Shown here piece after piece: positions 60-14,162 of a DNA stretch of 14,789 nt. The notes beneath the pieces were generated by a model. That model searched no databases and was not told the origin of the DNA. It worked only from the letters and a program-made list of their open reading frames with translations. The stretch spans positions 1 to 14,789 of the forward strand of contig JAFYIK010000250.1 of assembly GCA_017538685.1 (NCBI GenBank), in the 5' to 3' direction. This DNA is from Bacteroidales bacterium (GTDB lineage: Bacteria > Bacteroidota > Bacteroidia > Bacteroidales > UBA932). Within the stretch, counting starts at the first letter, position 1. Each line of letters starts with the position of its first letter. Made by a program: the position numbers and the translations under genes.

Positions 60-1424
60 TTATTTAAAGAGTTTTTTCACCAGTTCGGCGACGTCGGGGA
101 CGCGGACGATTTCGATCTTCGCGTTCTTCACGGCGTCCAGATTGGAGTACGAACTAAGGAAGATCTTGCGGAAACCGAGGCGCTGGGCTTCGATGACGCG
201 ACGGTCGGCCTGGGCCACGGGGCGGATTTCGCCGCTGAGGCCGACTTCGCCTGCAAAGCAGAAGTCGGACGGGATGGCGAAATCGAAATTCGACGAGAGT
301 ACCGCGCAGATGACCGCCAGATCACACGCCGGATCGGTAATCTTCAGGCCTCCGGCCATATTCAGGAACACGTCTTTCGCGCTGAGATGGAATCCGGCTC
401 TCTTTTCGAGAACTGCCAGAAGCATATTCAGGCGGCGCACATCGAAACCTGTTGCGGAACGCTGTGCGGTGCCATACGCCGCGGTGGAGACAAGAGCCTG
501 GACTTCGAACAGGAACGGACGTGTGCCGTCCAGCATCGCGCAGATGGCGGTGCCGCTCAGACCCTGCTCGTGCATAGGGATGAGCATTTCGGAAGGATTC
601 GCCACTTCGCGAAGACCCGTGCCGGTCATCTCGAACACGGCGAGTTCGGACGTGGAGCCGAAACGATTCTTGATGGACCTCAAAATCCTGTATGATCCGC
701 GGTTTTCGCCTTCGAATTGCAGGACCACGTCGACTATATGCTCCAGAATCTTCGGACCGGCGATGAAACCGTCTTTCGTGATATGGCCGATCAGGATCAC
801 CGGCACTCCGGAATCTTTCGCGAAACGGAGAAGACGGGCTGCGACTTCCTTGATCTGGGAGACTGAACCCGCGGCGGATTCGACGGTCTCCGTGTACATA
901 GTTTGCACGGAATCCACCACCATCAGGTCCGGCTGAATCTCTTCGGCTTCTGCCAGGATATTCTCGAGGAGGGTCTCTGCGTAAATCAGGCAGTTGTCAG
1001 CATCGCCGCCGAGACGCGCCGCGCGCATCTTAACCTGTTTCGCACTTTCCTCACCTGTGACATACAATGTACGGAGCGAAGGACAATGAAGAGGTATCTG
1101 CAGAGAGAGGGTGGATTTGCCGATTCCGGGTTCGCCGCCTATCAGCACCAGGGATCCCGGCACCATACCGCCGCCCAGAAGGCGGTCGACCTCGGCGCTC
1201 CCGAGGCTCACGCGAGCCTCGGCCGAGAGGTCGACTTCGCGAAGGCTCACCGGTTTGCGGCGCTCTAAAGCGCCCGCAAACTGCGCCTTCGCCGCCTTGC
1301 CCGCGGCGGGCACCGGAGCCTCCACCATCGTGTTCCATTCCTTGCACGCCGGGCACTGCCCCATCCATTTCGGGCTCTCGTTTCCGCAATTCGTGCAATA
1401 CCAAAGACTCTTCGCTTTCGGCAT
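60..1424 (-). CDS. radA: DNA repair protein RadA (Sms)
   Basis: Full-length RadA, 454 residues, the usual family length. It is a cytoplasmic RecA-like ATPase that acts with RecA in recombinational repair, driving branch migration of recombination intermediates. All diagnostic parts are visible: an N-terminal C4 zinc finger (C10, C13, C24, C27), a Walker A motif GGEPGIGKST (residues 96-105), a Walker B-like strand ending at D171 with SVQT after it, the RadA signature KNRFG (252-256), and a Lon-protease-like C-terminal domain (about 280-454) without an obvious Ser-Lys protease pair. The ATG is supported by the zinc finger beginning ten residues in and by a GGAGAG ribosome site 6 bases upstream. 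It starts 2 bases after the stop of the phosphoesterase gene, so the two are probably cotranscribed and translationally coupled. The identification is very secure. Confidence 0.97.
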   Translation of the reverse strand: MPKAKSLWYCTNCGNESPKWMGQCPACKEWNTMVEAPVPAAGKAAKAQFAGALERRKPVSLREVDLSAEARVSLGSAEVDRLLGGGMVPGSLVLIGGEPGIGKSTLSLQIPLHCPSLRTLYVTGEESAKQVKMRAARLGGDADNCLIYAETLLENILAEAEEIQPDLMVVDSVQTMYTETVESAAGSVSQIKEVAARLLRFAKDSGVPVILIGHITKDGFIAGPKILEHIVDVVLQFEGENRGSYRILRSIKNRFGSTSELAVFEMTGTGLREVANPSEMLIPMHEQGLSGTAICAMLDGTRPFLFEVQALVSTAAYGTAQRSATGFDVRRLNMLLAVLEKRAGFHLSAKDVFLNMAGGLKITDPACDLAVICAVLSSNFDFAIPSDFCFAGEVGLSGEIRPVAQADRRVIEAQRLGFRKIFLSSYSNLDAVKNAKIEIVRVPDVAELVKKLFK

Positions 1425-2031: not shown

Positions 2032-3270
2032 ATGAGTCAAATCCGACCGAAAAGCATTTTGAGCACCGTCTTGGCTGCTCTCATTGCGATTTTCCTTACC
2101 TCCTGTGAGGGAGGGGAAAATGTACTGCCCGACGGATTTTCCTTCAACTTCAATCCGAAGGAAGTGACAATCCCCTCTACCGGCGGCAGTGCCACCGTCA
2201 CCTTCAAGGCTCCCTACGACTGGAGTGTCGAAAGCACCGCGGAATGGATCCAGGTGACCCCGACTTCCGGAACCGTAGGAGATGTCACCGTGGAGATCTC
2301 GGTAGGCGTCAACCCCGCCCGCGAATCCCGCACCGCGACCGTCTCGGTCTCGCTGCCCGGATTCGAGTACACTGAATCTTTGAAGGTCACCCAGTTCGCC
2401 TGGGATCCGTCCATAGCCCTTTCAGAGGAGGCCCTCACGGCCCCTGCTGAGGGTATGACCGCCACCTTCAAGGTCAATGCTACCAACGACTGGAGCGTTT
2501 CCTCCGATGTCGATTGGATCACCCTCAGCCCTGAAGCAGGCGGCTTCGGCGAGACGGAAGTTACCGTCACCTTCGCTGCCAACCCGGTGGCCAGAGAACG
2601 TGCAGGCGTCATCACCGTCGCAGGTGAAGGCCAGACCGCAAGCGTGGCCGTAAGCCAGGCTGCCGCAGAACCCGCGCTCGATCTTTCCGCAGAGAATGTG
2701 GAGGTCAATAGCGAGGGCGACGCCGTGACGCTTACCATCTTCACCACCCTCGAATGGACGGCTGTCCCGGCCGACGAATGGGTCACCGTGGAGCCCGTCG
2801 AGGGCGACTATGGCGAGTCATCCGTGGTGATCACAATCGCAGAGAACGTCATCGCCCGCGAGCGCACCTCTTCTGTGGTGTTCACGTCCGGCGAACTGAC
2901 CGTGACGCTGCCCGTCGTGCAGGCGCCCGCTCCGGCGTGGATCACCCTTTCCGGCTATGAGGCCGAGTTCGCCTCCGGCGCCGGAAGCCTCATCCTGACC
3001 GTCACGACCAACGCCGACTGGACGGTGGGAACCGAGGCCGAATGGATCACCCTCTCAGCTGAGTCAGGTGAGCCCGGCGAGGCGCAGGTTACCGTCGCGG
3101 TGGCAGTCAACGACTCCCCGGATGCCCGCAGCGCAGACATCGTTTTTGTCGCAGTCAATGAAACAGCCACCCTCAAGCTGGCCCAGAAGGGTCGCGGAGA
3201 GCTCGGCGGCATCACCGGCGACATAGGCGAATGGGGCGACGGCGGCGAAGCCGAATATGGAAGAAAATAA
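2032..3270 (+). CDS. BACON-repeat lipoprotein (four BACON domains)
   Basis: A 412-residue lipoprotein. The signal peptide ends in a lipobox LTSC with the lipidated cysteine at C25, followed by E-G-G-E-N, an acidic stretch that could serve as a Bacteroidota surface-export signal. The rest is four BACON domains at about residues 37-122, 126-210, 216-298 and 305-386. Each holds a pair of tryptophans exactly eight residues apart (W64/W72, W154/W162, W242/W250, W330/W338) and a later N-x-x-x-R-like turn (for example N94-P-A-R). The C-terminal tail (387-412) is Gly/Asp/Glu rich. BACON domains occur on Bacteroidota surface proteins and have been linked to carbohydrate or mucin binding, but no ligand or catalytic motif is visible here. 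It is the first gene of the operon, 19 bases before the first fimbrillin-like paralog. No Shine-Dalgarno site precedes the ATG. Confidence 0.9.
   Translation: MSQIRPKSILSTVLAALIAIFLTSCEGGENVLPDGFSFNFNPKEVTIPSTGGSATVTFKAPYDWSVESTAEWIQVTPTSGTVGDVTVEISVGVNPARESRTATVSVSLPGFEYTESLKVTQFAWDPSIALSEEALTAPAEGMTATFKVNATNDWSVSSDVDWITLSPEAGGFGETEVTVTFAANPVARERAGVITVAGEGQTASVAVSQAAAEPALDLSAENVEVNSEGDAVTLTIFTTLEWTAVPADEWVTVEPVEGDYGESSVVITIAENVIARERTSSVVFTSGELTVTLPVVQAPAPAWITLSGYEAEFASGAGSLILTVTTNADWTVGTEAEWITLSAESGEPGEAQVTVAVAVNDSPDARSADIVFVAVNETATLKLAQKGRGELGGITGDIGEWGDGGEAEYGRK
2140..3189 (+). repeat. Four tandem BACON domain repeats
   Basis: Protein-level repeats with a period of 88-90 residues, set by the paired tryptophans in each copy. 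The shared pattern is D/E-W-(S/T)-V, then eight residues after the first Trp a second W-(I/V), then a P/S-x-x-G turn and a beta strand. Copies are well diverged at the DNA level, so this is an old internal duplication. Confidence 0.85.
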
Positions 3271-3289: not shown

Positions 3290-5764
3290 ATGACCAAACG
3301 TTCAGCCCTGATGCTGGTTCCGCTCGCAGCCTTTTTGCTGGGAGCGTGCAACCAGTTGCCCGAAGGAGTAAACAACTTGGGGCAGTCCCGGGAGATTCAT
3401 CTCGCGGGGTCCATCGGCTCGTACACCAAAGTCTCGGGGTCCGCTTTTGATGCGGGCGATGAGACGGGCCTCTTTATCGGAAGCCCGGTGAACGTGTCCA
3501 ATGTCAAAATCACCAGCAACGGGGAAGGCGGTTTCACCCCTTCCGAGAAGCTGTACTGGGCCGCGGGACAGCAGGACGATGAAGCATCCGAATTCATCGC
3601 CTATTATCCCTACATAGCCGAGGCCAGTGTCGAATCCGATCTCACTTTCGAATTGCAGACGGACCAGACTTCAGCCGAAGCCCTTGCGGCCTCTGATTTC
3701 CTTTACGCCCACGCAGAGGCAACTCCTGCCGATGCCGGCGTGAACCTCCCCTTCAACCACTTAATGTCGAGCTTTGCAATCAGCGTCGACTGTATGGTGG
3801 AGGGCCACTACATCACCGACGTGACGGTTGACGGCGTGCAGGTGGCGGCCAGCGTCACCCTCGCCGACGGCAGCGTCGTGGCAGCGGGCGACCCGGCCGC
3901 CGTGCAGGGAGCCGTGACCAACGAAGGTTTCTTCCTCGTGGTCGTGCCTCAGACTGCTTCCCCGGAAATCATCCTCGGCGTTTCCAACGGAGAGAAGGTC
4001 TCCTTCACTCCTCTCAAGCCCGTGGAATTCCCTGCCGGCAAGACCGTACGCGCACATCTCGTGCTTGAAATGGACACCATCAGCAGCTTCACTGCCGAGG
4101 TTGAAGACTGGATCGAAGACGAACTCGTCATTCAGGGCGAAGTCGCCGGCGACAGCGGCCTCGACCATAGCTGGTATGTCTATCTTCCTGAAAGAAACGA
4201 AATGATTGAGCTCGTTCCGGATGAAGGCGGACTCCTTACCAGGCGCATCTTCGGTTACGCCTATGAAGAATTCTTCATCTCGAAGGACGGCGAACCGGCG
4301 CAGCTGCTCGGCCAGGTGTACCAGAATTACTACTATGCACCGGATGCTGCAGACATCAAACTGATCTACACCAAGGATCTCCGTTATTCCATTCTGGTGG
4401 ACACCGATCTGGACATCATCGTGAACTTCGATCCGAAGCAGATGAGCCTGTCGATAGAGGAAGTCCCATATGCCTGGGACTCTCTCGGCGACGGTAAGTT
4501 CATCGACGGCTTCATTGCCGGCCTTTTCGGATTCCCCGATCAGGAAGTGGATGTGAAGGTATTTATGTCCCTCAATTATGACGGAGTGTATGCCCTGAAG
4601 GATCCTTTCAAGGATTTCCGCTGGGTCTCCGAGTATAATTTTGAAGTGGAGCCCGCAGAACTCATCTTTGTGATCAAGGAAGACAATAAGGCTTACTTCA
4701 AAGAGTCCTATACCGGATTGAAGTACAGGAGTTACGGACAATTCTGGGTGGAATCCCTCGTTCCTGAAACAGGAGAAGAGATGGAGAACTATGGAATCTT
4801 TGACCCGGAAAATCTCTACATCAGTTTCAAAGAGCGTACGGGCACGATGACCGATGTCGGAGGCTGGTACTCCAACCGCTACGGCAAGATGGCGGTCACT
4901 CTTCCCGGAGGCACCCGTACGGACCGTTATGAGACCGTTTCCGTGGACTACGTCAACACCCCTTCCGTGACCGACGAACAGAAGATAGTCAATTTCGGGG
5001 GTACAGTAGGACTGGACGTCCCCAGAGTCGTCTACGCCGTATTACCCGGCTACCTTACGACGGATGAAATCACAGCCGCATCACCTGCGGAGGCGCTCGA
5101 AGTGGACGAATCGGTCCCCGGCGACCATTACACTGCGAACTGGGAATGCCCTGAATCCGGCGACTATACGATTATCGTGTGGGGCCTCTCCGAAGAAGGT
5201 GAGGTGCTTACGCACACATCCACCATCTTCAGCGCCAAACTCGAGATGGACAAGCGCTATCTCGCCTGGCTGGGCACCTGGAGCATTGCAGCGTACGGCG
5301 GTTCGGTCTACGAATATACCCTCAGCATCAATGAGCCTGAACAGAGCTATACGATGAGCGGATTCTCATTCGATTGCCCGGTCTACTTCGACCAGAGCAC
5401 GGGAGACATTCTCTTCTACGGCGGATATCAGGTCTACAAGGATGAGGACAATTACATAATGACTATCGGCTATGGTGATGAGCGTTACGCATACCTCTCA
5501 CCTATGGCCCGCTTCGTTATGGGTGATGACCTCGACACAGCTGAGATTCAGCCTGTGTTGGATGACGTCTTCCTGTTCGGCCAGTGGATCTACTACGCGG
5601 ATGGATCTTCTTATGGATACTATCATAAGTATGATTTGCTTTACGCGTCCCAGACAATCAGCAGAGTACTGGAAGAAGAAGGGGCGGATGGCGGTCGCGG
5701 AGTGCACAGCCAGACCCTCGAAGTTCCTTCCGATGCAACTCCCTTTACAAGAAGTAATAAATAA
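3290..5764 (+). CDS. Fimbrillin-like (Mfa-like) lipoprotein 1 with NPY module and GTW domain
   Basis: An 824-residue lipoprotein with lipobox LGAC (C20). Residues about 35-277 form an Mfa-like/fimbrillin domain: S-x-G-S-Y-T-K (41-47), F-D-A-G-D-E-T-G-L-F (53-62), A-Y-Y-P-Y (104-108), D-Q (125-126), F-N-H (155-157), a V-V-P-Q strand (218-221) and a closing D-W-I (273-275). A SusE/F-like beta-sandwich may follow (about 292-385). Residues about 395-520 hold a module with W396-x-x-L-G and D-P-F (438-440), related to two in the next gene. After a further stretch (535-650) comes a domain opening L-G-T-W (661-664). The C-terminus is Tyr-rich with an acidic patch and ends P-F-T-R-S-N-K. Its exact role is unknown; an outer-membrane, surface-exposed adhesin or glycan-binding protein is the inference. 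No Shine-Dalgarno site precedes it. The stop codon is 5 bases before the next gene. Confidence 0.85.
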   Translation: MTKRSALMLVPLAAFLLGACNQLPEGVNNLGQSREIHLAGSIGSYTKVSGSAFDAGDETGLFIGSPVNVSNVKITSNGEGGFTPSEKLYWAAGQQDDEASEFIAYYPYIAEASVESDLTFELQTDQTSAEALAASDFLYAHAEATPADAGVNLPFNHLMSSFAISVDCMVEGHYITDVTVDGVQVAASVTLADGSVVAAGDPAAVQGAVTNEGFFLVVVPQTASPEIILGVSNGEKVSFTPLKPVEFPAGKTVRAHLVLEMDTISSFTAEVEDWIEDELVIQGEVAGDSGLDHSWYVYLPERNEMIELVPDEGGLLTRRIFGYAYEEFFISKDGEPAQLLGQVYQNYYYAPDAADIKLIYTKDLRYSILVDTDLDIIVNFDPKQMSLSIEEVPYAWDSLGDGKFIDGFIAGLFGFPDQEVDVKVFMSLNYDGVYALKDPFKDFRWVSEYNFEVEPAELIFVIKEDNKAYFKESYTGLKYRSYGQFWVESLVPETGEEMENYGIFDPENLYISFKERTGTMTDVGGWYSNRYGKMAVTLPGGTRTDRYETVSVDYVNTPSVTDEQKIVNFGGTVGLDVPRVVYAVLPGYLTTDEITAASPAEALEVDESVPGDHYTANWECPESGDYTIIVWGLSEEGEVLTHTSTIFSAKLEMDKRYLAWLGTWSIAAYGGSVYEYTLSINEPEQSYTMSGFSFDCPVYFDQSTGDILFYGGYQVYKDEDNYIMTIGYGDERYAYLSPMARFVMGDDLDTAEIQPVLDDVFLFGQWIYYADGSSYGYYHKYDLLYASQTISRVLEEEGADGGRGVHSQTLEVPSDATPFTRSNK
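4472..4849 (+). repeat. NPY-type module, copy in lipoprotein 1
   Basis: Residues about 395-520 align by eye with two segments of the next gene: W-x-x-L-G-x-G at the start, then a hydrophobic F-x-x-P-x-Q-E-V-(D/E)-V strand, then Y-x-x-K-(D/N)-P-(F/Y). I recognise this layout from other Bacteroidota surface proteins but do not know a secure family name or a ligand. Confidence 0.55.
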
Positions 5765-5769
5765 TATAT

Positions 5770-8688
5770 ATGAAAAGATACATTAAATTCTTGACAATTG
5801 CACTCGCTGCAGGGGCGCTCATTTCCTCCTGTGATTTAAGCGAGAAAGCATCCGATGTTGCCGGAGGAAAAGCCATCCGCTTCACTGCGACCATCGGCCA
5901 GTATCAGGTCAAGGCGACCGACACCTCCTTCGAGGAAGGTGATGCCATAGGCCTGTTCTCCACCCAGCCCGTGGAGGCGGACAATGCCCGCCTTACCATC
6001 GTGGGCGGCGAATTGAACCCCGACACCCCTATCCTTTGGGGCGAGTACCAGCAGACGGACAAAGCCGTCAATTTCTACGCCTATTATCCTTACCAGGAGC
6101 AGGCTACCCCCAGGTTTACCTTCACCGTGGCTGAGGATCAGTCAGTCGAAGCCAACTACAAAGCTGCCGACCTGATGCTCGCCAGCACCACGGCGGCTCC
6201 GATCGACGATGCCGTTGTCCTCAACTTCGCGCACCATATGTCCCGCGTCATCTTCGTGGTGGACAACCGCACGGACGCCAAGGTCGTTGAGGTCTCGGTG
6301 GACGGTGTCGCTCTCGCAGCGGACGTGAATATCGAGGTTCCTGAGGCAATGGTGGTGAAAGACGGCGAACCCGCTTCCGTCAAGGCGGCCCCCGTGGTCC
6401 GCGGCGAGACCGAGGGCTGGTCTGTCATCATTCCTGCGCAGGCCTGTGCTCCTGTCGTCACCGTGAAGATGGACGACGGCAAGGAATATCAGGTTGCTCC
6501 CGAAGAAGACGTGTGGATCGAGGCAGGACGCAGCTATATGGTCGGCCTGATCATCGACGCCACTATGACTCCTCCGGCATTCAACGCCACCGTCTCCGAC
6601 TGGATCGACGACTGGGGCTGGATGGGCAAGGAAGACGATCCCGGCAAGCTGTCTGTGACCTGGCACGTGTCCCTTGGAGGCGAATGGTTTGATATGGAAG
6701 AGCAGGAGGACGGCCTCTGGCACGCAATCGTTCCGACAATGGACGAGTATGTCAGGGTTCAGATCGTCAAGAACAATCATTATGGCAACAGCGTCATTCC
6801 GAGTTACGAACTGTTCGGAGCGAATACACCTGAGTGGTACGCCCACGAGGTGAAGGAAGGTAAGCCCGTCGAGTTTGCGCTTGCACCTGATTCATATATC
6901 ACTCTTGCCATTGATGCTCCCGCTATCGAATTCCTGCTTGATCCTGTGACACGTCATCTGACTGTCTCGACGCTTTCCTATGAGTGGGAGACTCTCGGTA
7001 CCGGATCTATTCTTGAGACTGTCCTCGCCACTTACTTTGACATTCCCAGACAGGAAGTTGAGGTCACGGTGGAGGCTGACTCCCGTATCCCTGGTCTTTA
7101 TCGCATAAAGAATCCTTATCTGAATTGGGTATGCCCTGAAGGCTTCCGCTATGTGGGTGGTGACGACCTTTTGATCTATGTGCAGGAGGACGGACGCGTA
7201 CGCTTCGATTTCAACGATACGGGTATCATCTTCGAGAAGGCCGGCCAGATCTATGTTTCTTTAAACACCGGCTACTTATATGAGGATAGAAACGCCGTCC
7301 TTGTCTGGGGCGCTGAAGTTATGGCCGGAGGAGACGAAGATTGGGTGGAGTTCAGAACGCCTATGTATGTCGTCCTGCCCGGTGGTTTCCGTCCCGAGGA
7401 ATTGAGCGTAGAGCTTAATTATCTCGGAGTCCCCGAGGTGGCCGATGGAGAAGTTCCCGAAGAGACCTGCGTGGAGATCGAACTCTACGCCGGTATGGAT
7501 GTCACCAGTGTCCGCGGCGGCCTGTTCGCCGGCACGCTTTCCACCAAGGAGCTTCTTGCTCTCGTGGATGAGGTGAAGACGAACGGCGAGGAAATCGAGT
7601 TTGTGCCTCAGGGCTGGAGTCTCCTGACCATTCCGATCGAGCAGACCGGTTCTTATACTTTCTTCGTAGTCTCCCAGGGAGACGGCGAGGGATACGACGC
7701 AGACTACGTGCACTTCTCGGTGCTGATGCCCGGTGAGGAAGCTCCGGACGCGGCAATCGAAGTGACGGCCGCCCCCGGCATCTTCGGCGAGGCGGAGGTG
7801 CTTGCAAACGTAGTCTTCCCGAACTCTGATTACATCCAGGCCCTTATTATGGACGACAAAGCCTGGGCAGATGCCAATCTGACCTCGGACGACATCTACG
7901 ACTATGTGATGTCCAACGGTCAGGAACTCTACTCATACTATATGAGCAGCACCGGCCAGGAAGTTTACTTCGGCGATCTCGAACCGGAAACGACTTATCA
8001 CATCCTCGTTGCCGGCGTCAGCGCCTTCGACAAGTCCGCCTGGGCTATGACCGAAGTGACGACGACCGCCGAGCCTGAATTCGCGGAATTCGGCACAGGT
8101 CACTACCACGACAACTGGTACAACGCTTTCGGTCCTAAGGGCTGGCACACTGAGGTCTCTATCCTTAAGGCCGAGACCGATCCTGTCCGCTACCGCGCCC
8201 TGAATCCTTACAAGGGCTACTGGGAGAATCCCACCGAGGGCTACGACTCCTATTATGGCAAGTCCGCTCCTTGGATCGACTTTGCAGTGGTCGGCGAGGA
8301 AGTTCACTACCTCCCTTATCTGATCGGCTACCTTGAGAAGGGCTACGGTCCCGTTCTGTACACCTGCCGCAATAAGTATTCAGGATACTTCTATCCTAAC
8401 AATGCGCTTATTGAGGAAGGCGTTCTCAACATCGCTCCGACTGCTTACATCCTCGGTACTCAGTACTGGTATGGTAATGTGGATGCCTGGAGAGAGATTT
8501 ACCTGGAGATGCCTGGCTATACCATCACTCCGGAAGAAGAAGAGGAGGAACCGGTTGTGGAACCTGGAAGGGCTATGCGTAAACTGGATGGCAACACTCA
8601 GGTTCTGGCCCCCCAGAAGGACGCCCGTTCCTTTACCCGTCACATACTCCACACTGGAGAAATCAAAGTGACCGTCCGTGAAAAATAA
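5770..8688 (+). CDS. Fimbrillin-like (Mfa-like) lipoprotein 2 with two NPY modules
   Basis: A 972-residue lipoprotein, the largest of the four paralogs; lipobox ISSC (C21). The Mfa-like domain covers about 35-280: T-I-G-x-Y-x-V-K-A-T-D-T-S-F-E (41-55), G-D-A-I-G-L-F (57-63), F-Y-A-Y-Y-P-Y (102-108), E-D-Q-S (122-125), N-F-A-H-H (152-156), I-I-P-A-Q (220-224) and D-W-I (277-279). A SusE/F-like segment follows (about 295-400). NPY module 1 spans about 405-540 (W406-x-x-L-G-T-G, N-P-Y at 448-450). Residues 660-767 look like an Fn3-type domain ending in V-T-T-T-A. NPY module 2 spans about 769-905 (F-G-T-G at 774-777, N-P-Y at 812-814). A six-Glu run (922-927) then leads to a basic tail containing F-T-R. 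It lies 5 bases after the preceding stop, so reinitiation is likely. A surface adhesin or glycan binder is inferred, not shown. Confidence 0.85.
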   Translation: MKRYIKFLTIALAAGALISSCDLSEKASDVAGGKAIRFTATIGQYQVKATDTSFEEGDAIGLFSTQPVEADNARLTIVGGELNPDTPILWGEYQQTDKAVNFYAYYPYQEQATPRFTFTVAEDQSVEANYKAADLMLASTTAAPIDDAVVLNFAHHMSRVIFVVDNRTDAKVVEVSVDGVALAADVNIEVPEAMVVKDGEPASVKAAPVVRGETEGWSVIIPAQACAPVVTVKMDDGKEYQVAPEEDVWIEAGRSYMVGLIIDATMTPPAFNATVSDWIDDWGWMGKEDDPGKLSVTWHVSLGGEWFDMEEQEDGLWHAIVPTMDEYVRVQIVKNNHYGNSVIPSYELFGANTPEWYAHEVKEGKPVEFALAPDSYITLAIDAPAIEFLLDPVTRHLTVSTLSYEWETLGTGSILETVLATYFDIPRQEVEVTVEADSRIPGLYRIKNPYLNWVCPEGFRYVGGDDLLIYVQEDGRVRFDFNDTGIIFEKAGQIYVSLNTGYLYEDRNAVLVWGAEVMAGGDEDWVEFRTPMYVVLPGGFRPEELSVELNYLGVPEVADGEVPEETCVEIELYAGMDVTSVRGGLFAGTLSTKELLALVDEVKTNGEEIEFVPQGWSLLTIPIEQTGSYTFFVVSQGDGEGYDADYVHFSVLMPGEEAPDAAIEVTAAPGIFGEAEVLANVVFPNSDYIQALIMDDKAWADANLTSDDIYDYVMSNGQELYSYYMSSTGQEVYFGDLEPETTYHILVAGVSAFDKSAWAMTEVTTTAEPEFAEFGTGHYHDNWYNAFGPKGWHTEVSILKAETDPVRYRALNPYKGYWENPTEGYDSYYGKSAPWIDFAVVGEEVHYLPYLIGYLEKGYGPVLYTCRNKYSGYFYPNNALIEEGVLNIAPTAYILGTQYWYGNVDAWREIYLEMPGYTITPEEEEEEPVVEPGRAMRKLDGNTQVLAPQKDARSFTRHILHTGEIKVTVREK
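6982..7389 (+). repeat. NPY-type module, copy 1 in lipoprotein 2
   Basis: Residues about 405-540, beginning E-W-E-T-L-G-T-G and containing Q-E-V-E-V (428-432) and P-G-L-Y-R-x-x-N-P-Y (441-450). It closely follows the layout of the module in lipoprotein 1, including the position just after the SusE/F-like segment, and both are followed by a V-x-L-P-G-G strand. Confidence 0.6.
8074..8484 (+). repeat. NPY-type module, copy 2 in lipoprotein 2
   Basis: Residues about 769-905. It starts F-A-E-F-G-T-G and has V-R-Y-R-A-L-N-P-Y at 806-814. It is preceded by an Fn3-like domain rather than a SusE/F-like one and is the C-terminal folded unit before the Glu-rich linker. It is more diverged from copy 1 than copy 1 is from the module in lipoprotein 1, judged by eye. 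Confidence 0.55.
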
Positions 8689-8707
8689 CTCCTAGAACGA
8701 ACGAAAA

Positions 8708-11491
8708 ATGAAAAAGATATTTAGATTAATTGCCCTTGCCACCGCTTTCGGCGCTGCGCTCTCCGGCTGTACTCTGACGGAAGAGACCGGCCAGACCGGA
8801 AAGAATGAGATCAAGTTCTCAGCCACGGTGGGTTCCTTCCAGGTAAAGGCCACAGATACAGCCTTCGATGCGTTGGATGCAATCGGTCTGTTCGCAGATG
8901 AGCCCGTCTATGCTTACAACGTCAAACTGACCTACGAGAACGGAAAACTCACACCTGAGGAGCCGGTCTACTGGGGCAGCTACCAGCTGCTCGAGCAGCC
9001 TACCTACTTCTATGCTTACTATCCTTATGACGCAGACCGCGATGGTATGGAAGGCCGTCATTCAGTGGCGAAGGACCAGTCTACGCCCGAGGCCCTCTCG
9101 GCTTCAGACTTTATGGTCGCTAAAGCCCTGAGCGCTCCTGCCGACGGTGCAGTCCAGCTGAACTTCGCCCACGCATATTCGAAGATAGTCTTCACAGTGG
9201 AGAACCTCGTCGACGATGTGGCGGTGGAAAGCGTTCATCTCGGGAATGTCGCCCTGTCCGCCAGGGGCGTGGCCGGCGAAATCGCCTCTTGCTGGTCTGA
9301 CTTTGATGTATTCGGCGACGTGAAGACCGCTCCGGTCACCACGGCTGCCGACGAGCCCGCGTGGGCTTGTATCATCCCTCCTCAGAGCGCGTTCCCTATC
9401 GTTCTGGTCGTGATGAAGGATGGCCGTCAGTATGCATTCAACTCAGAGAAAGAGGTCTATTTCAACCCGTCTCTGCGTTACAATGCAAAGATCGTCATCG
9501 ACGAAACGACCGTCTCGGCTGATTTCGCTTACGATATCACCGACTGGATCGACAGCGGCGACATCACCTTCGGCCAGTTCAGGGATTATGGCGTGTGGTA
9601 TTGTATGACGGATGAGAACTATTGGGGCCGTATGTATGATGAAGGAAAGACCGTGCGTTACACCAACATAGAGTATCACGCTGGCGAGGTTATCCGCTTC
9701 TACAGCGATCAGGAGAACCTCTATTATGGTGTCGCACTCTCCGACGGTGCCGTGCTTGCAGCGGAAACTGCATATCCTATGGCTCCCGGCGAGTATGAGA
9801 ACGTAGGCTTCACCCTGCCTCAGGAAGGTTACTGGAATCTTGTGATCAACGCTGCGGCAAAGACCGTTACGGCTTACTACACCGGCGGCTTCCCCGAGAC
9901 CGAGAACTGGGCTCTTGTCGGTACCATCTATGGTGGCGACTGGAATACAGACTACGAGCTGACTCCTTATGCGGACGAAATCAATGTCTTCTATACTAAT
10001 CTGACCTATCACGTCGGCGAGGAGTTCAAGCTCCGCAAGGATGGCGCTTGGGCAGAAAACTTCGGCATCAACAATGGCGGAAAGCCTCTGCAGAGCGATA
10101 ATGAGTATGCGCTTACCGCAGGCGGTGACAACATCACTCTCCCCGAGGATGGTATCTGGTACATTGCTGTCAGCATCAATGATGGATGGCTCTACTGCTA
10201 CCGTATGAGCGATATTCCTGACGATGAATATGAACTTACATCTGTGCAGGATGCGGTCGATGTTCCGAATAACACCGAAGTCCAGGTGACCAATGTGGTC
10301 TATGCCACCACCACCAGGGGCTTTATGCTGTTCGACGGCAAGTATTCAATCTTCGTGTACGCCGCGGGTGATCCCGGCGTCGGCCCTGGAGATGTCGTGC
10401 GCGTCAGCGGAACAAAGACAACCTATAATGGCGTTCCTGAGATTACTAATCCGGTCTGGGAAGTTCTCGGTCACGAGTATCTGATGGATCTTAGCTACTA
10501 TTATGAGGATATCACATCCTACTTTGACAGCTACACAGCCGGCATCTCGACCCTGATTTCGTTCGTGGGTGTCCTTGGCGACAATGCTTACATTATGACA
10601 GTGGAGGGTGCCGAGACACAAGGTAACATCTATTATGCTACTTCGGATCTTGGTCTATCCGGTTTCATTGGTCATAAGATTCGCGTAAACGGCTTCTACA
10701 ACGGCCGTAACAAGAACAATCAGCTGAGTATCGTCGTGACCGAAGTCTCCGAGGATTGGGGAATTCCCGAGCCGGAGCCGGAACCGGAACCGATCGACCT
10801 CTCTATCAGCATCGCTGATGGTACACTGGCAGCCAGCTGGGCAGCCGTGGAAGGCGCCTACCTATATGGCTGGTCAGTCCAGAATGCTTATGGCGACATT
10901 CTGCTCGACGGAAGAACTGCAGACACTTCGCTTGAAGTCAGTGTTGCGGAACTCGCCGCCGGTAATTATATGTTCCAGATTTTCGCGGTAACCGCCGATG
11001 GTAATCTGCTCGCCCTGACCAACGTCGACTTCGCTATCGCGGGAGAGGATCCTGAGCCGATGGCAAATCCTTTCGAAAGCAATGTGACTTGGTCATTGAT
11101 CAGCGCCGCATATGATGACAATACGCTCAATGTTACCATAGATAGAAATACTTTCGAAAATGTGCCTAACGTGAAACTGGGAACATCTTCGAGGGTAGGA
11201 TCTTTCTCCATTACCGTTCCTGCAGGCACCACCGCCCTTTCTTTCTGGGCGGCGGCTTGGAAGGGATCGGACGCAACTCTCGTTGTTACATACGGCGAAA
11301 ACACTGTTGAGTTTACCGTTCCTGCGAATGACGGTGCGTCTGGCAGCAAACCTTACAATATGACGGTTGACGGGTCCAATGCTTTCTATTTGAATCTGGG
11401 CGTTATCGAGGAAGATACGGTTATCACTTTCGAGACCACAACCTCCGCTTATCGCGCATTCGTTTTCGGTATTCAAGCTCTTGATAAATAA
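8708..11491 (+). CDS. Fimbrillin-like (Mfa-like) lipoprotein 3 with SusE/F-like and OB-like domains
   Basis: A 927-residue lipoprotein, lipobox LSGC (C21). The Mfa-like domain runs about 34-282: V-G-S-F-Q-V-K-A-T-D-T-A-F (41-53), D-A-I-G-L-F (57-62), F-Y-A-Y-Y-P-Y (101-107), K-D-Q-S (122-125), N-F-A-H (152-155), C-I-I-P-P-Q (221-226) and D-W-I (279-281). Two SusE/F-like starch-binding-type domains follow: about 293-391, and 400-498, the latter with G-x-x-x-G-G-D-W (405-412), E-E-F-K-L-R (438-443) and G-G-D-N-I (472-476). Residues 507-682 look like a pair of OB-like beta-barrels with V-G-P-G-D-V-V-R-V-S-G (558-568). A Pro-Glu linker (687-695) leads to an Fn3-like domain (about 696-778) and a final beta-sandwich (786-927) of a type often found at the end of Bacteroidota surface proteins. 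The ligand is unknown. It lies 19 bases after the preceding gene, without a Shine-Dalgarno site. Confidence 0.85.
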   Translation: MKKIFRLIALATAFGAALSGCTLTEETGQTGKNEIKFSATVGSFQVKATDTAFDALDAIGLFADEPVYAYNVKLTYENGKLTPEEPVYWGSYQLLEQPTYFYAYYPYDADRDGMEGRHSVAKDQSTPEALSASDFMVAKALSAPADGAVQLNFAHAYSKIVFTVENLVDDVAVESVHLGNVALSARGVAGEIASCWSDFDVFGDVKTAPVTTAADEPAWACIIPPQSAFPIVLVVMKDGRQYAFNSEKEVYFNPSLRYNAKIVIDETTVSADFAYDITDWIDSGDITFGQFRDYGVWYCMTDENYWGRMYDEGKTVRYTNIEYHAGEVIRFYSDQENLYYGVALSDGAVLAAETAYPMAPGEYENVGFTLPQEGYWNLVINAAAKTVTAYYTGGFPETENWALVGTIYGGDWNTDYELTPYADEINVFYTNLTYHVGEEFKLRKDGAWAENFGINNGGKPLQSDNEYALTAGGDNITLPEDGIWYIAVSINDGWLYCYRMSDIPDDEYELTSVQDAVDVPNNTEVQVTNVVYATTTRGFMLFDGKYSIFVYAAGDPGVGPGDVVRVSGTKTTYNGVPEITNPVWEVLGHEYLMDLSYYYEDITSYFDSYTAGISTLISFVGVLGDNAYIMTVEGAETQGNIYYATSDLGLSGFIGHKIRVNGFYNGRNKNNQLSIVVTEVSEDWGIPEPEPEPEPIDLSISIADGTLAASWAAVEGAYLYGWSVQNAYGDILLDGRTADTSLEVSVAELAAGNYMFQIFAVTADGNLLALTNVDFAIAGEDPEPMANPFESNVTWSLISAAYDDNTLNVTIDRNTFENVPNVKLGTSSRVGSFSITVPAGTTALSFWAAAWKGSDATLVVTYGENTVEFTVPANDGASGSKPYNMTVDGSNAFYLNLGVIEEDTVITFETTTSAYRAFVFGIQALDK
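10766..10792 (+). repeat. Pro-Glu linker, short hexanucleotide repeat
   Basis: Four near-perfect tandem units of GAGCCG/GAACCG encode an alternating Pro-Glu stretch (residues 687-695). It separates the OB-like pair from the C-terminal Fn3-like region and should act as a stiff, extended linker. The hexamer unit could change copy number by slippage without breaking the frame. Confidence 0.75.
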
Positions 11492-11497
11492 TAGCTT

Positions 11498-14110
11498 ATG
11501 AAGATCTTTAGAACAATATACAGACTGGCTCTGACGGCCCTGACGCTCGGCGCCGTCCTCACCGGATGCTCTGCCATCCAGGAGGACGATCCCGGGCAGG
11601 ACGGCCGTCGCGAGATCAAGTTCACGGCGTCCGTGGGCACCTATCAGGTGAAAGCCACGGACACCTCCTTCGAGGGAGGTGATGCCGTGGGCCTGTTCGC
11701 AGAGGCCTACTTCAGCGCAAACAACCTGCGCCTGGAGTGGGACGGCCAGCACCTGGTGCCCCAGGAGCCTCTCTACTGGGGACCGGTCAATCAGGTCTAC
11801 CGCTTCGCGGCTTACTATCCCTATAATCCCGAGTGGATGGGTGGCAATCGTCAGGAGTTCGTAGTCAATTCCGACCAGACCACTCACAAACTCTTCACTG
11901 AGTCCGACCTTATGATGGCCAGTGCGAGGGTCACCACGGCTGACGGGGATGTAAACTTCCACTTCCATCACGTGCTCTCCAAGATTATCATCCATATCGA
12001 CAACCAGCTTGAGGAAGAAATCAGCGAAGTCTTTATGGGCGATATCTACGGAGCAATACGTGTGTATCCCTACGACCTTGTCAACTTCGAATTATCCGGC
12101 ACACCCGGCACGATCAAGGCCGGTGCGGTGACCACGGCCGCAGGCGATCCCGCCTGGGCCCTCATCGTGCCTCCTCAGACCGGACGTCCGACCATTCTGA
12201 TAACCACCGTCAGCGGCAAGCAGTACACTTGCACCACGGAAGGTTACATCGGTTTCGAGAACGGTTGCTGCTACAATGCCAACGTGACTCTGGACGAGAA
12301 TTTGATTTCCACCGAGTTTACCGAGGAAGTGACCGAGTGGGTTGACAACAAAGACCTTATGTTCCACGACTTTGATTGGGGCTTAACCGGTTCATTCACC
12401 AACTGGTCTTACGATTACCAGATGGGTCGTACTGCAGACAAAGGCATCTTCGAACTCGAACTCGCTTTAGAATTGGGAGACGAGTTCAAGTTCCGCAGGG
12501 ACTTTGATTGGGACTTCAACTACGGTATCGGTGAGATGGGTGATGCGGTCGAGGTGGCGGAGGGCACTTACCCCCTGACCCGCAACGGTTCCAACATCAC
12601 GATGGCTACCGACGGCCGTTGGAAAATCACACTCGACATCCTGGCGGAAACGGTTACCTTCACCCTCCTCGAGTCCTTCGGCTCGGAAATCATTTGGACG
12701 GGCTCTCAGCAGATAGAATGGGACGCGGCTCTCCAGGACTTCGCCTATGAAGCATACGACTGGTCTACAGTCGCTCCCGGAACCATCCTTCGCATCAGCT
12801 TCGCCCAGAACAATTACGACTGGTGGTGTATGCGCGTTGCCGATGGCTACAAATGGGAGGCTCTGCCCGGACTACCGGATCTCTATGAGTGTCCTTCAGG
12901 CGCCATCGAGGTTTTCCTTACGGAAGAAATTCTTGATCAACTCGTCAATAACGGCGGCCTTATCATCTACGGCACAGGCATTACCCTGAAGAAACTTGCT
13001 CTGGTGAAAGACAGATTCGATTACACACCTTCTGCCGATTACCTCTCGGATGCCAATATCTGGAAGGCGGTGGACGAGAATTCCACGCTGGAGTGGTTCT
13101 ATTGCCCTGGTTGGGGAGACGAGAAGAATCCCCCGTCCGTCGGTAAATTCGGATCTACCTACGTGTTTACGAATGCCTACGACACCAATGATTATTGGCA
13201 GGCACAGATGTGGATTATGCCGAATAACGGACTCTATCTCGATCCCAACAAGACGTATAGTTTCTCGTGTACCATCTACTCTTCCAACTACGTTCCTTTC
13301 TTCGTGAAGATGTATGAGAAGGGAGTGGATTACCCCTCGTCCTTCGAGAGCGACCGTTACACGCTTGGCTACCGTCAGTACACCTACAGAGTGAACGAAT
13401 TCACGCCGCTTTCCACTTCTCAGTGCCTTCTCTTCGACTTCGGCGGGATTGCCGCCAACACCAGGGTTTACATTAAGGACATCGTCCTTAAGGAAGTTGG
13501 TGGAGGTGCCGTCGTTGCCGAAGCCGAGGCTGTCGATCTGGGCCTGTCCGTCAAGTGGGCAAACATCAATCTTGGCGCGGCATCTCCTGAGCAGTGCGGC
13601 ACTTATTATGCCTGGGGAGAAACGACTCCGAAACAGGATTATAAGTGGGATACCTATAAATGGTGTCTTAAGGGTAACGGAACGGAAAGATGCTACACAT
13701 TGACCAAGTATAACACGGATGCCGAGTACGGCGAGGTGGATTATGTGACGGTCCTTGACGCGGACGATGATGCTGCTTCTTATGCACTCGGCGCAAATTG
13801 GCGTATGCCTACTCAGGCCGAATGGGAGGAGCTCGTCAATAGTTGCGAATGGTCTTTGACGGCAGTCAACGGCCAGGACGGTTATATCGTTTCCGGCAAT
13901 GGCAATAACATATTCTTACCTCTCGCTGGTTTCGCACATACCAGTCAAACCTATAATGTGGGAGGTACAGGCTATTATTGGACTGCCAATATGTCCCAGA
14001 ATATGCCTGACCACGGAGTTTGTACGCGCATTGATTATGACGGTCAATTCCCCGGGGATATATATGGCAAATTCCACGGGTTCTCCGTCCGCGCTGTTAC
14101 AGAATTGTAA
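11498..14110 (+). CDS. Fimbrillin-like (Mfa-like) lipoprotein 4 with carbohydrate-binding-like domains and FISUMP C-terminus
   Basis: An 870-residue lipoprotein, lipobox LTGC (C24). The Mfa-like domain covers about 39-282: V-G-T-Y-Q-V-K-A-T-D-T-S-F-E (46-59), G-D-A-V-G-L-F (61-67), A-A-Y-Y-P-Y (104-109), S-D-Q-T (125-128), F-H-H (156-158), I-V-P-P-Q (223-227). A SusE/F-like domain follows (292-391; G-S-F-T-N-W at 298-303, D-E-F-K-F-R at 328-333, G-S-N-I at 364-367). Residues 398-504 and about 505-667 look like two carbohydrate-binding-type beta-sandwiches. The C-terminus (677-869) is a clear FISUMP domain: V-D-L-G-L-S-V-K-W (679-687), Y-Y-A-W-G-E-T (703-709), T-K-Y-N (736-739), W-R-M-P-T (768-772), I-F-L-P-L-A-G (805-811), G-Y-Y-W (825-828), S-V-R-A-V (863-867). 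It is the last gene of the operon, 6 bases after its neighbour. A surface glycan-binding or adhesive role is inferred. Confidence 0.88.
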   Translation: MKIFRTIYRLALTALTLGAVLTGCSAIQEDDPGQDGRREIKFTASVGTYQVKATDTSFEGGDAVGLFAEAYFSANNLRLEWDGQHLVPQEPLYWGPVNQVYRFAAYYPYNPEWMGGNRQEFVVNSDQTTHKLFTESDLMMASARVTTADGDVNFHFHHVLSKIIIHIDNQLEEEISEVFMGDIYGAIRVYPYDLVNFELSGTPGTIKAGAVTTAAGDPAWALIVPPQTGRPTILITTVSGKQYTCTTEGYIGFENGCCYNANVTLDENLISTEFTEEVTEWVDNKDLMFHDFDWGLTGSFTNWSYDYQMGRTADKGIFELELALELGDEFKFRRDFDWDFNYGIGEMGDAVEVAEGTYPLTRNGSNITMATDGRWKITLDILAETVTFTLLESFGSEIIWTGSQQIEWDAALQDFAYEAYDWSTVAPGTILRISFAQNNYDWWCMRVADGYKWEALPGLPDLYECPSGAIEVFLTEEILDQLVNNGGLIIYGTGITLKKLALVKDRFDYTPSADYLSDANIWKAVDENSTLEWFYCPGWGDEKNPPSVGKFGSTYVFTNAYDTNDYWQAQMWIMPNNGLYLDPNKTYSFSCTIYSSNYVPFFVKMYEKGVDYPSSFESDRYTLGYRQYTYRVNEFTPLSTSQCLLFDFGGIAANTRVYIKDIVLKEVGGGAVVAEAEAVDLGLSVKWANINLGAASPEQCGTYYAWGETTPKQDYKWDTYKWCLKGNGTERCYTLTKYNTDAEYGEVDYVTVLDADDDAASYALGANWRMPTQAEWEELVNSCEWSLTAVNGQDGYIVSGNGNNIFLPLAGFAHTSQTYNVGGTGYYWTANMSQNMPDHGVCTRIDYDGQFPGDIYGKFHGFSVRAVTEL

Positions 14111-14126
14111 TATCTGCGGATAACAC

Positions 14127-14162
14127 AAAAAATCCCGGAGCTTCAAGGCCCCGGGATTTTTT
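14127..14162. terminator. Strong bidirectional terminator between the operon and the OPT gene
   Basis: A 12-bp perfect inverted repeat (AAAAAATCCCGG at 14127-14138, its complement at 14151-14162) with a 12-base loop. GC pairs sit at the loop side and A/T tracts flank both outer ends, so it reads as an intrinsic terminator in both directions. It starts 16 bases after the last operon stop codon. Its last two bases are part of the stop codon of the convergent transporter gene. Confidence 0.9.

Follow-up and report, generated by a model that had tools for sequence, protein, structure and literature searches.

SusE/F modules are classic partners of SusCD, and SusE, SusF and the SGBP-B proteins of polysaccharide utilisation loci share X25/SusF-like and SGBP-B-like modules with the lipoproteins described here. 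In the window (the whole 14,789-nt stretch of DNA that was analysed), however, such modules ride on a fimbrillin domain and no SusC/SusD is adjacent; no SusE/F protein is known to carry a fimbrillin domain. The amylosome of Ruminococcus bromii (Sca5, Sas20) likewise contains starch-binding X25 modules, and its site residues recur in two window modules, but the platform here is the fimbrillin domain, and the five proteins of the set gave no cohesin or dockerin match in Pfam at E ≤ 1. Fimbrillin-amylase clusters have in common with the window a BACON domain, SusE/F modules and several fimbrillin genes; they differ in having a SusG-like GH13 amylase and, in the two checked, DUF3575, both absent from the window.

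Known Bacteroidales tip pilins (Mfa3 and tips with ligand-binding ends) share with the window proteins the fimbrillin fold, a precursor that is a lipoprotein, a basic residue immediately behind strand 1 and a domain-end Trp followed by an extension (PMC5789003, PMC12632263). The window differs from them in that four such genes stand in tandem behind a BACON gene, with no stalk-sized pilin or DUF3575, and in that the conserved Trp is followed by 550–694 residues of SusE/F, SGBP-B-like, CBM4-like, OB-like and Fn3-like modules. The original prediction could match the full arrangement to no named system. In the open-licence literature, we found no description of a BACON-fimbrillin array or of a fimbrillin-SusE/F fusion; tip pilins with ligand-binding ends, as such, are already known from a 2025 review (PMC12632263).

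We propose, with a probability of about two in three, that the array encodes modular surface adhesins of the tip-pilin type for starch and other glycans. A type V pilin domain with tip-pilin architecture would present glycan-binding heads on surface lipoproteins, with the BACON lipoprotein as a putative spacer or partner. The fimbrillin domain would anchor each protein at the outer membrane or, alternatively, be cut behind the Lys that ends strand 1 and then dock through strand exchange. X25/SusE-F modules, of which two in the window keep the site, would bind starch-like alpha-glucans and the SGBP-B/CBM4-like modules other plant glycans, so that the cell could cling to particles of starch and plant material. 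Position 2, together with position 1 in near relatives, would form a constant core whose heads are related to SusD-adjacent proteins, and positions 3–4 would have diversified through module exchange. Little is known of what the type V pili of gut Bacteroidales bind, as stated in the same review (PMC12632263). In this locus, fimbrillins meet Sus-type glycan binding, both of them large surface systems of the order. Because relatives of the modules have solved structures and known ligands, recombinant heads would allow immediate tests of ligand binding.

Table 1. Features of the window, with positions, strands and the basis of each assignment.
Feature	Position	Strand	Basis
radA	60–1424	minus	Pfam/ORF annotation of window
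Phosphoesterase gene	1427–1918	minus	ORF annotation of window
P0001, lipoprotein with four BACON domains, 412 aa, first of the set	2032..3270	+	Pfam
P0002, position 1, fimbrillin-domain lipoprotein, 824 aa, MFA-a-e-c1-d1	3290..5764	+	Mfa_like_1 9e-37
Mfa-like (type V pilin) domain of P0002	3389..4123	+	Pfam and custom HMMs, by sequence
P0002 head: module a, NPY-type module e, c1, d1	4157..5584	+	Custom HMMs
P0003, position 2, fimbrillin-domain lipoprotein, 972 aa, MFA-a-e-c-d-e	5770..8688	+	Mfa_like_1 1.5e-32
Mfa-like domain of P0003	5869..6615	+	Lys48 after strand 1, Trp278 near domain end
P0003 module a, SusF-like fold, without WKWN site	6643..6999	+	Predicted fold
P0003 NPY-type module e, Fn3-like c and d, second module e	7000..8523	+	Custom HMMs and model
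P0004, position 3, fimbrillin-domain lipoprotein, 927 aa, MFA-SusEF-SusEF-OB1-OB2-Fn3-S2	8708..11491	+	Mfa_like_1 1.6e-29; by sequence
P0004 SusE/F-like module 1, WRNG, site lost	9587..9883	+	Custom HMMs and site alignment
P0004 SusE/F (X25) module 2, WKWN kept	9908..10207	+	HMMs and site alignment
P0004 OB-like module pair	10241..10744	+	HMM; PF01336 at E ≤ 0.01 in 6/53 family members
P0004 Fn3-like module and terminal sandwich S2	10790..11479	+	HMM, by sequence only
P0005, position 4, fimbrillin-domain lipoprotein, 870 aa, MFA-SusEF-SGBP-CBM4-FISUMP	11498..14110	+	Mfa_like_1 2.8e-29
P0005 SusE/F (X25) module, WKWN kept	12377..12667	+	HMM and site alignment
P0005 SGBP-B-like module	12692..13003	+	Custom HMM
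P0005 CBM4-like module	13052..13498	+	Module assignment
P0005 FISUMP/Lcl_C-like C-terminal module	13526..14098	+	Sub-cut-off Pfam E 0.0065, 0.0025; HMM link to P0024
Terminator-like hairpin, TCCCGG/CCGGGA stem between A and T runs	about 14127–14162		Read from sequence
OPT transporter gene, convergent with the array, cut by window end	3' of hairpin	minus	ORF annotation

The gaps within the five-gene plus-strand set measured 19, 5, 19 and 6 bases, and the BACON gene and the four fimbrillin genes are likely to form a single transcript. The hairpin that separates the array from the convergent OPT gene could act as terminator for both units; it is absent from the list of our terminator scan, which had a loop limit of 8. 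Window scans revealed no excess of terminators (9 versus 12.6 in shuffles) or of sigma-70 promoters (8 versus 7.8). The only DNA repeats of at least 24 bases were located where the fimbrillin domain begins in genes 2–4. Searches of the window gave nothing at gathering score in Rfam, no PHROGs match at E 0.001 and no NCBIfam match over cut-off for its proteins. A look for a diversity-generating retroelement found no reverse transcriptase among the window genes; matches to this enzyme occurred in 2 of 6 relatives' genomes, away from the array. The other window genes are those for BACON, RadA, phosphoesterase and OPT proteins, with no stalk or anchor pilin gene, no DUF3575 in Pfam, and no SusC/SusD pair or amylase.

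All four array proteins exceeded the curated Mfa_like_1 cut-off of 27 bits, with scores from 103 to 128 bits (E 9e-37 to 2.8e-29), and structure prediction gave a type V pilin fold for both N-domains modelled, those of P0003 and P0005. The lipoprotein Cys lies at residues 20, 21, 21 and 24, the signal peptides being judged by eye. These results bear out the predicted set of four lipoproteins with a common N-domain of Mfa-like fold. A Lys follows strand 1 in each of the four. In three sets of fimbrillins, compared after leaving out 14 of 223 proteins with a late-starting domain, the residue at this point was basic in 54/54, 84/87 and 67/68 members, and the Trp was conserved in 54/54, 85/87 and 67/68. 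The basic residue is nearly universal among the fimbrillins examined and consequently does not discriminate between roles.

The architecture beyond the domain was compared with those of the pilin classes. Shaft pilins end in a tail soon after the Trp, a feature seen in none of the four window proteins. The disulphide-fixed strand 1 loop without basic cleavage site, typical of Mfa2-type anchors, was not found either: the stretch from the lipid Cys to residue 168, 226, 195 and 245, respectively, is free of further cysteines, and the Lys is present. This comparison covers the Mfa2 type alone, and other anchor types may still apply. As in tip pilins, the fimbrillin domain of all four is followed by a long C-terminal part of the ligand-binding kind, as a matter of architecture only. 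The idea of a platform with tip-adhesin-like heads is partly supported; the stalk and anchor pilins of such a system are missing from the window.

Tips capping conventional type V pili, with shaft, anchor and assembly genes elsewhere in the genome, would be a special case of the preferred reading with overlapping odds, and we regard it as unlikely. DUF3575 was present elsewhere in all six genomes searched and a FimA-family match over cut-off in five of them, and in three loci of Bacteroides, Muribaculaceae and Alistipes a big MFA-LRR-BACON-M64 protein stands between two fimbrillins of ~300 aa. Against conventional pili, the array would supply four tips with no stalk among its genes. Moreover, in the genome with the closest array (G001, completeness not given), only one of the five Mfa_like_1 matches, with 357 aa and 34.5 bits, falls outside that array, and the sole FimA match of the genome was below cut-off.

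A second possibility is a short mixed fibre, in which Lys-processed fimbrillin domains exchange strands to form a four-headed heteropolymer scaffold for binding starch and plant glycans. It is compatible with the preferred reading, and we hold it with little confidence. The near-constant basic residue and Trp in the three fimbrillin sets, the low-confidence loop around the basic residue in both models, clostripain-family proteases in 6/6 genomes and the positional order common to the nearest arrays are in its favour. However, the basic residue is not specific to array proteins, and the C-terminal tail of known shafts is a proposed donor strand (PMC5789003); here, the Trp is followed by the long head instead.

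The heads include SusE/F (X25), SGBP-B-like and CBM4-like folds among others, and custom HMMs resolved four distinct architectures, one per protein, as had been read from the translations. BACON, named in the same reading, was recovered as well: P0001 matched Pfam BACON_2 (3.3e-45) and BACON (5.5e-42) over four stretches. The module HMMs were run at E 1e-3 on 252 proteins only, so weak assignments are uncertain. A phmmer search against the PDB returned no match for P0002 at E ≤ 1, two weak matches for P0004 and a weak fibronectin match for one SusE/F module; after these weak results, the structural link of the SusE/F modules needed profile A7, built on ten hand-picked modules. A7 did not match module a of P0002 and P0003, which was linked by its fold and by an iterated profile that may drift. 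A shared fold by itself is no evidence of function.

For P0005, a head consisting of a SusE/F-like module, two beta-sandwiches and FISUMP had been suggested. The SusE/F-like module and two further modules, SGBP-B-like and CBM4-like, were found, while FISUMP stayed below the Pfam cut-off. The model of this protein is weak, with a mean pLDDT of 61 and residues 669–870 unusable. Structural matches with SGBP-B of B. ovatus (6e57/6e9b) extend as far as residue 503 and are only suggestive, because they span 159..503 at an rmsd of 12–13.

In the crystal structure of the Sca5 X25 modules, the 2b lobe holds maltotriose via W620, K654, W661, N684 and N687 (PMC9112005). Counted along the alignment, W620, K654, W661 and N687 correspond to the invariant A7 columns W12, K41, W48 and N75. 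This WKWN set was complete in 77/119 SusE/F modules of MFA proteins, 20/23 modules of SusE/F-like proteins and 13/15 of BACON-SusEF proteins, compared with 2/27 for module a and 0/183 for modules of other kinds; the counts include copies and the modules of A7 itself, and the 183 unrelated modules, being force-aligned, are a weak control. Two of the five window modules keep the set (P0004 401–500 and P0005 294–390), and it is lost in P0004 294–392 (WRNG), P0003 module a (WQFE) and P0002 module a. Starch binding by P0004 and P0005, two of the four proteins, is a fair prediction from these residues. At positions 1–2 starch is unsupported, as module a there lacks WKWN. The same paper reports that an X25 module of Sca5 does not bind when taken singly, in contrast to the modules of SusE and SusF (PMC9112005). 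A phage-display screen of human gut DNA had proteins with SusF_SusE domains among its starch binders (PMC10076258).

The recurrence of the gene set was surveyed by a pattern scan of one genome per species in 84,980 species, which matched 148 stretches, 89 of them encoding a relative; the best 80 of these 89, as 75 loci, formed the sample. A first genome scan with P0003 had found no relative, and the relatives came from a second scan with alignment A2 (26 proteins; A5 held 12, and A3 53 of 58 with P0043, P0044 and P0060–P0062 left out). For the best loci, the records name red deer, sheep omasum, roe deer omasum, yak rumen and water buffalo reticulum. The window is probably from a gut bacterium. 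Among the matches listed, a BACON gene lay directly upstream in 13 of 17 tandem arrays, the window included, an array being at least two adjacent MFA genes of at least 500 aa; these are not 13 independent events because L009/L023 and L013/L016/L041 are close relatives. The arrays without it, among the same matches, were L002, whose upstream gene is truncated where the contig ends and resembles the head of a position-2 protein, L069, at a contig edge, L025 and L026. The L101 array, outside the 17, is also BACON-first.

An N-domain tree of 95 rows, covering the window and 37 of the 75 loci (L021 is labelled window-type in it though of the amylase type), paired window genes 1, 2 and 3 with the same-position genes of L001 (support 100/100, 97/92 and 100/99). 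N-domain identity to the L001 orthologs was 60% for P0002 and 62% for P0004 (L001_3). Window gene 4 grouped with L001_4, L002_2, L003_3 and L004_3 (92/97). Genes of L003 and L004 fell at positions 2–4 and those of L009 and L023 at positions 1–2; the tree did not place genes 3–4 of L009/L023, or L013, L014, L016 and L041 beyond position 1, with those of the window. Of the five-gene order suspected to be conserved, the leading BACON gene and the positional pairing with L001 were found, and the other arrays among the matches listed were placed only in part. Of the 101 genomes around that of L001, 39 matched the position-2 alignment at E ≤ 0.001, many via parts only. A match above 400 bits spanning the protein was present in four (G001, G003, G057 and G060), and the array that contains it starts with BACON in every case; a further tandem array lies on contig C105 of G003.

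The survey contradicts the reading as chance neighbours or an assembly artefact, that is, duplicated genes of unrelated function with no common role, which we consider highly improbable. P0003–P0005 are only 21–30% identical to P0002 over the whole alignment, and the radA and phosphoesterase genes of the window were absent from the other loci (searched over up to 10 kb per locus, among the matches listed; the OPT part of this flank search gave no self-hit as positive control), as chance would allow. The recurrent upstream BACON gene and the positional groups among the matches listed argue against chance, as do proteins in the collection that are almost the same as P0003 (98% identity) and P0004 (96%).

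The heads might instead hand glycans or peptides to a SusCD importer encoded elsewhere, a role that we find quite doubtful. Modules of kinds c/c1, d and e also occur in lipoproteins encoded beside SusD in 4/4 loci tested, of five fetched, and the SusE/F modules point the same way through their classic partnership. As a reservation about the adhesin reading, the SusD-linked partner proteins may serve other nutrients, so modules c, d and e may have other ligands. Against an import role, no SusCD pair lies beside the window array, and none of the 10 neighbours of five sister arrays matched SusC or SusD; these neighbours were of varied function, the one upstream of the L001 array being a GH31 enzyme. 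A fimbrillin domain, moreover, is not known from SusE/F proteins.

Returning to the adhesin reading, related clusters show what else the fimbrillin domain is joined to. It is fused elsewhere to CotH, CBM48-GH13 or LRR, and to LRR-BACON-M64 peptidase in all three Bacteroides, Muribaculaceae and Alistipes loci tested; with so many partner modules, it looks like a general carrier. In 6/6 loci tested (L012, L024, L030, L042, L044 and L104), GH13 and CBM58 domains identified the BACON-SusEF-SusEF protein as a SusG-like amylase. Downstream in these loci lie fimbrillin genes, of which many carry SusE/F modules, and a DUF3575 gene follows in L030 and L104 (G002), both of the amylase loci checked. Judging from their titles, L030 and L023 belong to one MAG (RGIG7961), and L039 is a near-copy of L030. 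A tentative and rather unlikely extension would make the array a fimbrial counterpart of the amylosome, in which the type V pilin domain would serve quite generally as a platform where devices for capturing nutrients dock. The fimbrillin domains of positions 1–4, once processed, would form a short mixed fibre by strand exchange, bearing four glycan-binding heads of which the core head is constant and the outer heads recombined, and sister clusters would add the amylase.

Head diversity differed by position. Position 2 had one architecture in 15/15 proteins, a set drawn partly from a full-length P0003 search that favours constant architecture; the position-2 proteins found via loci alone were constant in 5/5. 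Position 1 had one architecture in the nearest 4/4 proteins and other modules in 7/11 of the wider group, in five strings. Positions 3 and 4 displayed 15 architectures among 24 proteins and 9 among 12, respectively, in lists hand-assigned from a quick tree (group support 0.86 and 0.88) that omit P0024 as a copy of L004_3, keep near-copies such as P0009 and P0044, and may contain incomplete proteins from short contigs (P0020, P0027). Positions 3–4 diversify by module exchange, and position 2 is constant.

The exchange is visible in individual pairs. P0033 and P0037 share MFA at 96% and SusEF at 99%, then carry different terminal modules. Between P0030 and P0033, MFA (96%) and OB1-OB2-DUF6359 (99–100%) enclose a SusEF part of 58%; P0045 and P0046 share OB1 (93%) and OB2 (88%) flanked by parts of at most 63%. 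The mosaics, 96–99% identical on one side of the breakpoint, are recent, and such natural swaps provide material for studying how surface adhesins diversify. L003 and L004 have no position 1, and their modules a-e are carried by the BACON protein. The position-4 gene of L001 matches P0019 in MFA (98%) and SusEF (97%) and then reaches a stop. Downstream of this stop, a short stretch resembles, by eye and with no HMM hit, the start of the P0019 CBM4-like module.

The position-4 gene of the L001 sister array is shortened, and judged from its sequence it has probably undergone a recent head loss. A stretch beyond its stop codon retains similarity to the first part of the CBM4-like module found in the related protein P0019. 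Arrays at L003 and L004 lack position 1, and their BACON proteins bear modules a-e, which belong to position 1. An 849-aa BACON-a-SusEF-e protein is encoded by a divergent gene near the array on the contig shared by L102 and L014. The gene directly upstream of the L001 array, adjoining its BACON gene, encodes a GH31 enzyme; neighbours of four other sister arrays were of other kinds. At the end of the window array, a terminator scan did not list the terminator-like hairpin, probably because of its long loop.

Coordinates of features in the window and in related loci
Feature	Coordinates	Remark
Terminator-like hairpin	window 14127-14162	common to array and convergent OPT transporter gene
CBM4-like stretch (probable remnant)	L001:13675-13780	
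BACON proteins with modules a-e	L003:5447-6949; L004:66-1565	
BACON-a-SusEF-e gene	L102:14346-16895	
GH31 gene	L103:6760-9510	
Amylase-fimbrillin cluster	L030:5015-14779	example
CBM48-GH13 fusion	L038:9935-13348	
Three tandem Mfa-type proteins	L069:2-9920	Prevotellaceae MAG
Second tandem fimbrillin array	C105:2277-8475	G003, genome of L004

Six loci (L012, L024, L030, L042, L044 and L104) contained a BACON-SusEF-SusEF-GH13-CBM58 amylase clustered with several fimbrillin genes, some with and some without SusE/F modules. From this arrangement, the amylase appears to be coupled with a fimbrillin system. CBM26 matches were found in the amylases of four of the six, and DUF3575 in both clusters checked for it (L030 and L104).

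Other domains were found on the fimbrillin N-domain (Mfa) itself. In L045, L066 and L070, an Mfa-LRR-BACON-M64 protein of ~1,170 aa, flanked by two ~300-aa fimbrillins, would represent a peptidase on a fimbrillin platform; similar gene lengths also occurred in other Bacteroides/Muribaculaceae loci. The N-domain was fused to a CotH kinase domain in P0041 and to CBM48-GH13 in P0042 and at L038.

The tandem proteins of L069 (986 aa, cut; 1,180 aa; 1,140 aa) carry BACON domains. Loci L010, L015, L017 and L025 (Tidjanibacter) had fimbrillin-SusE/F genes (two in L025, one in each of the others) with no upstream BACON gene, and a ribonucleotide reductase lay near those of L017 and L025.
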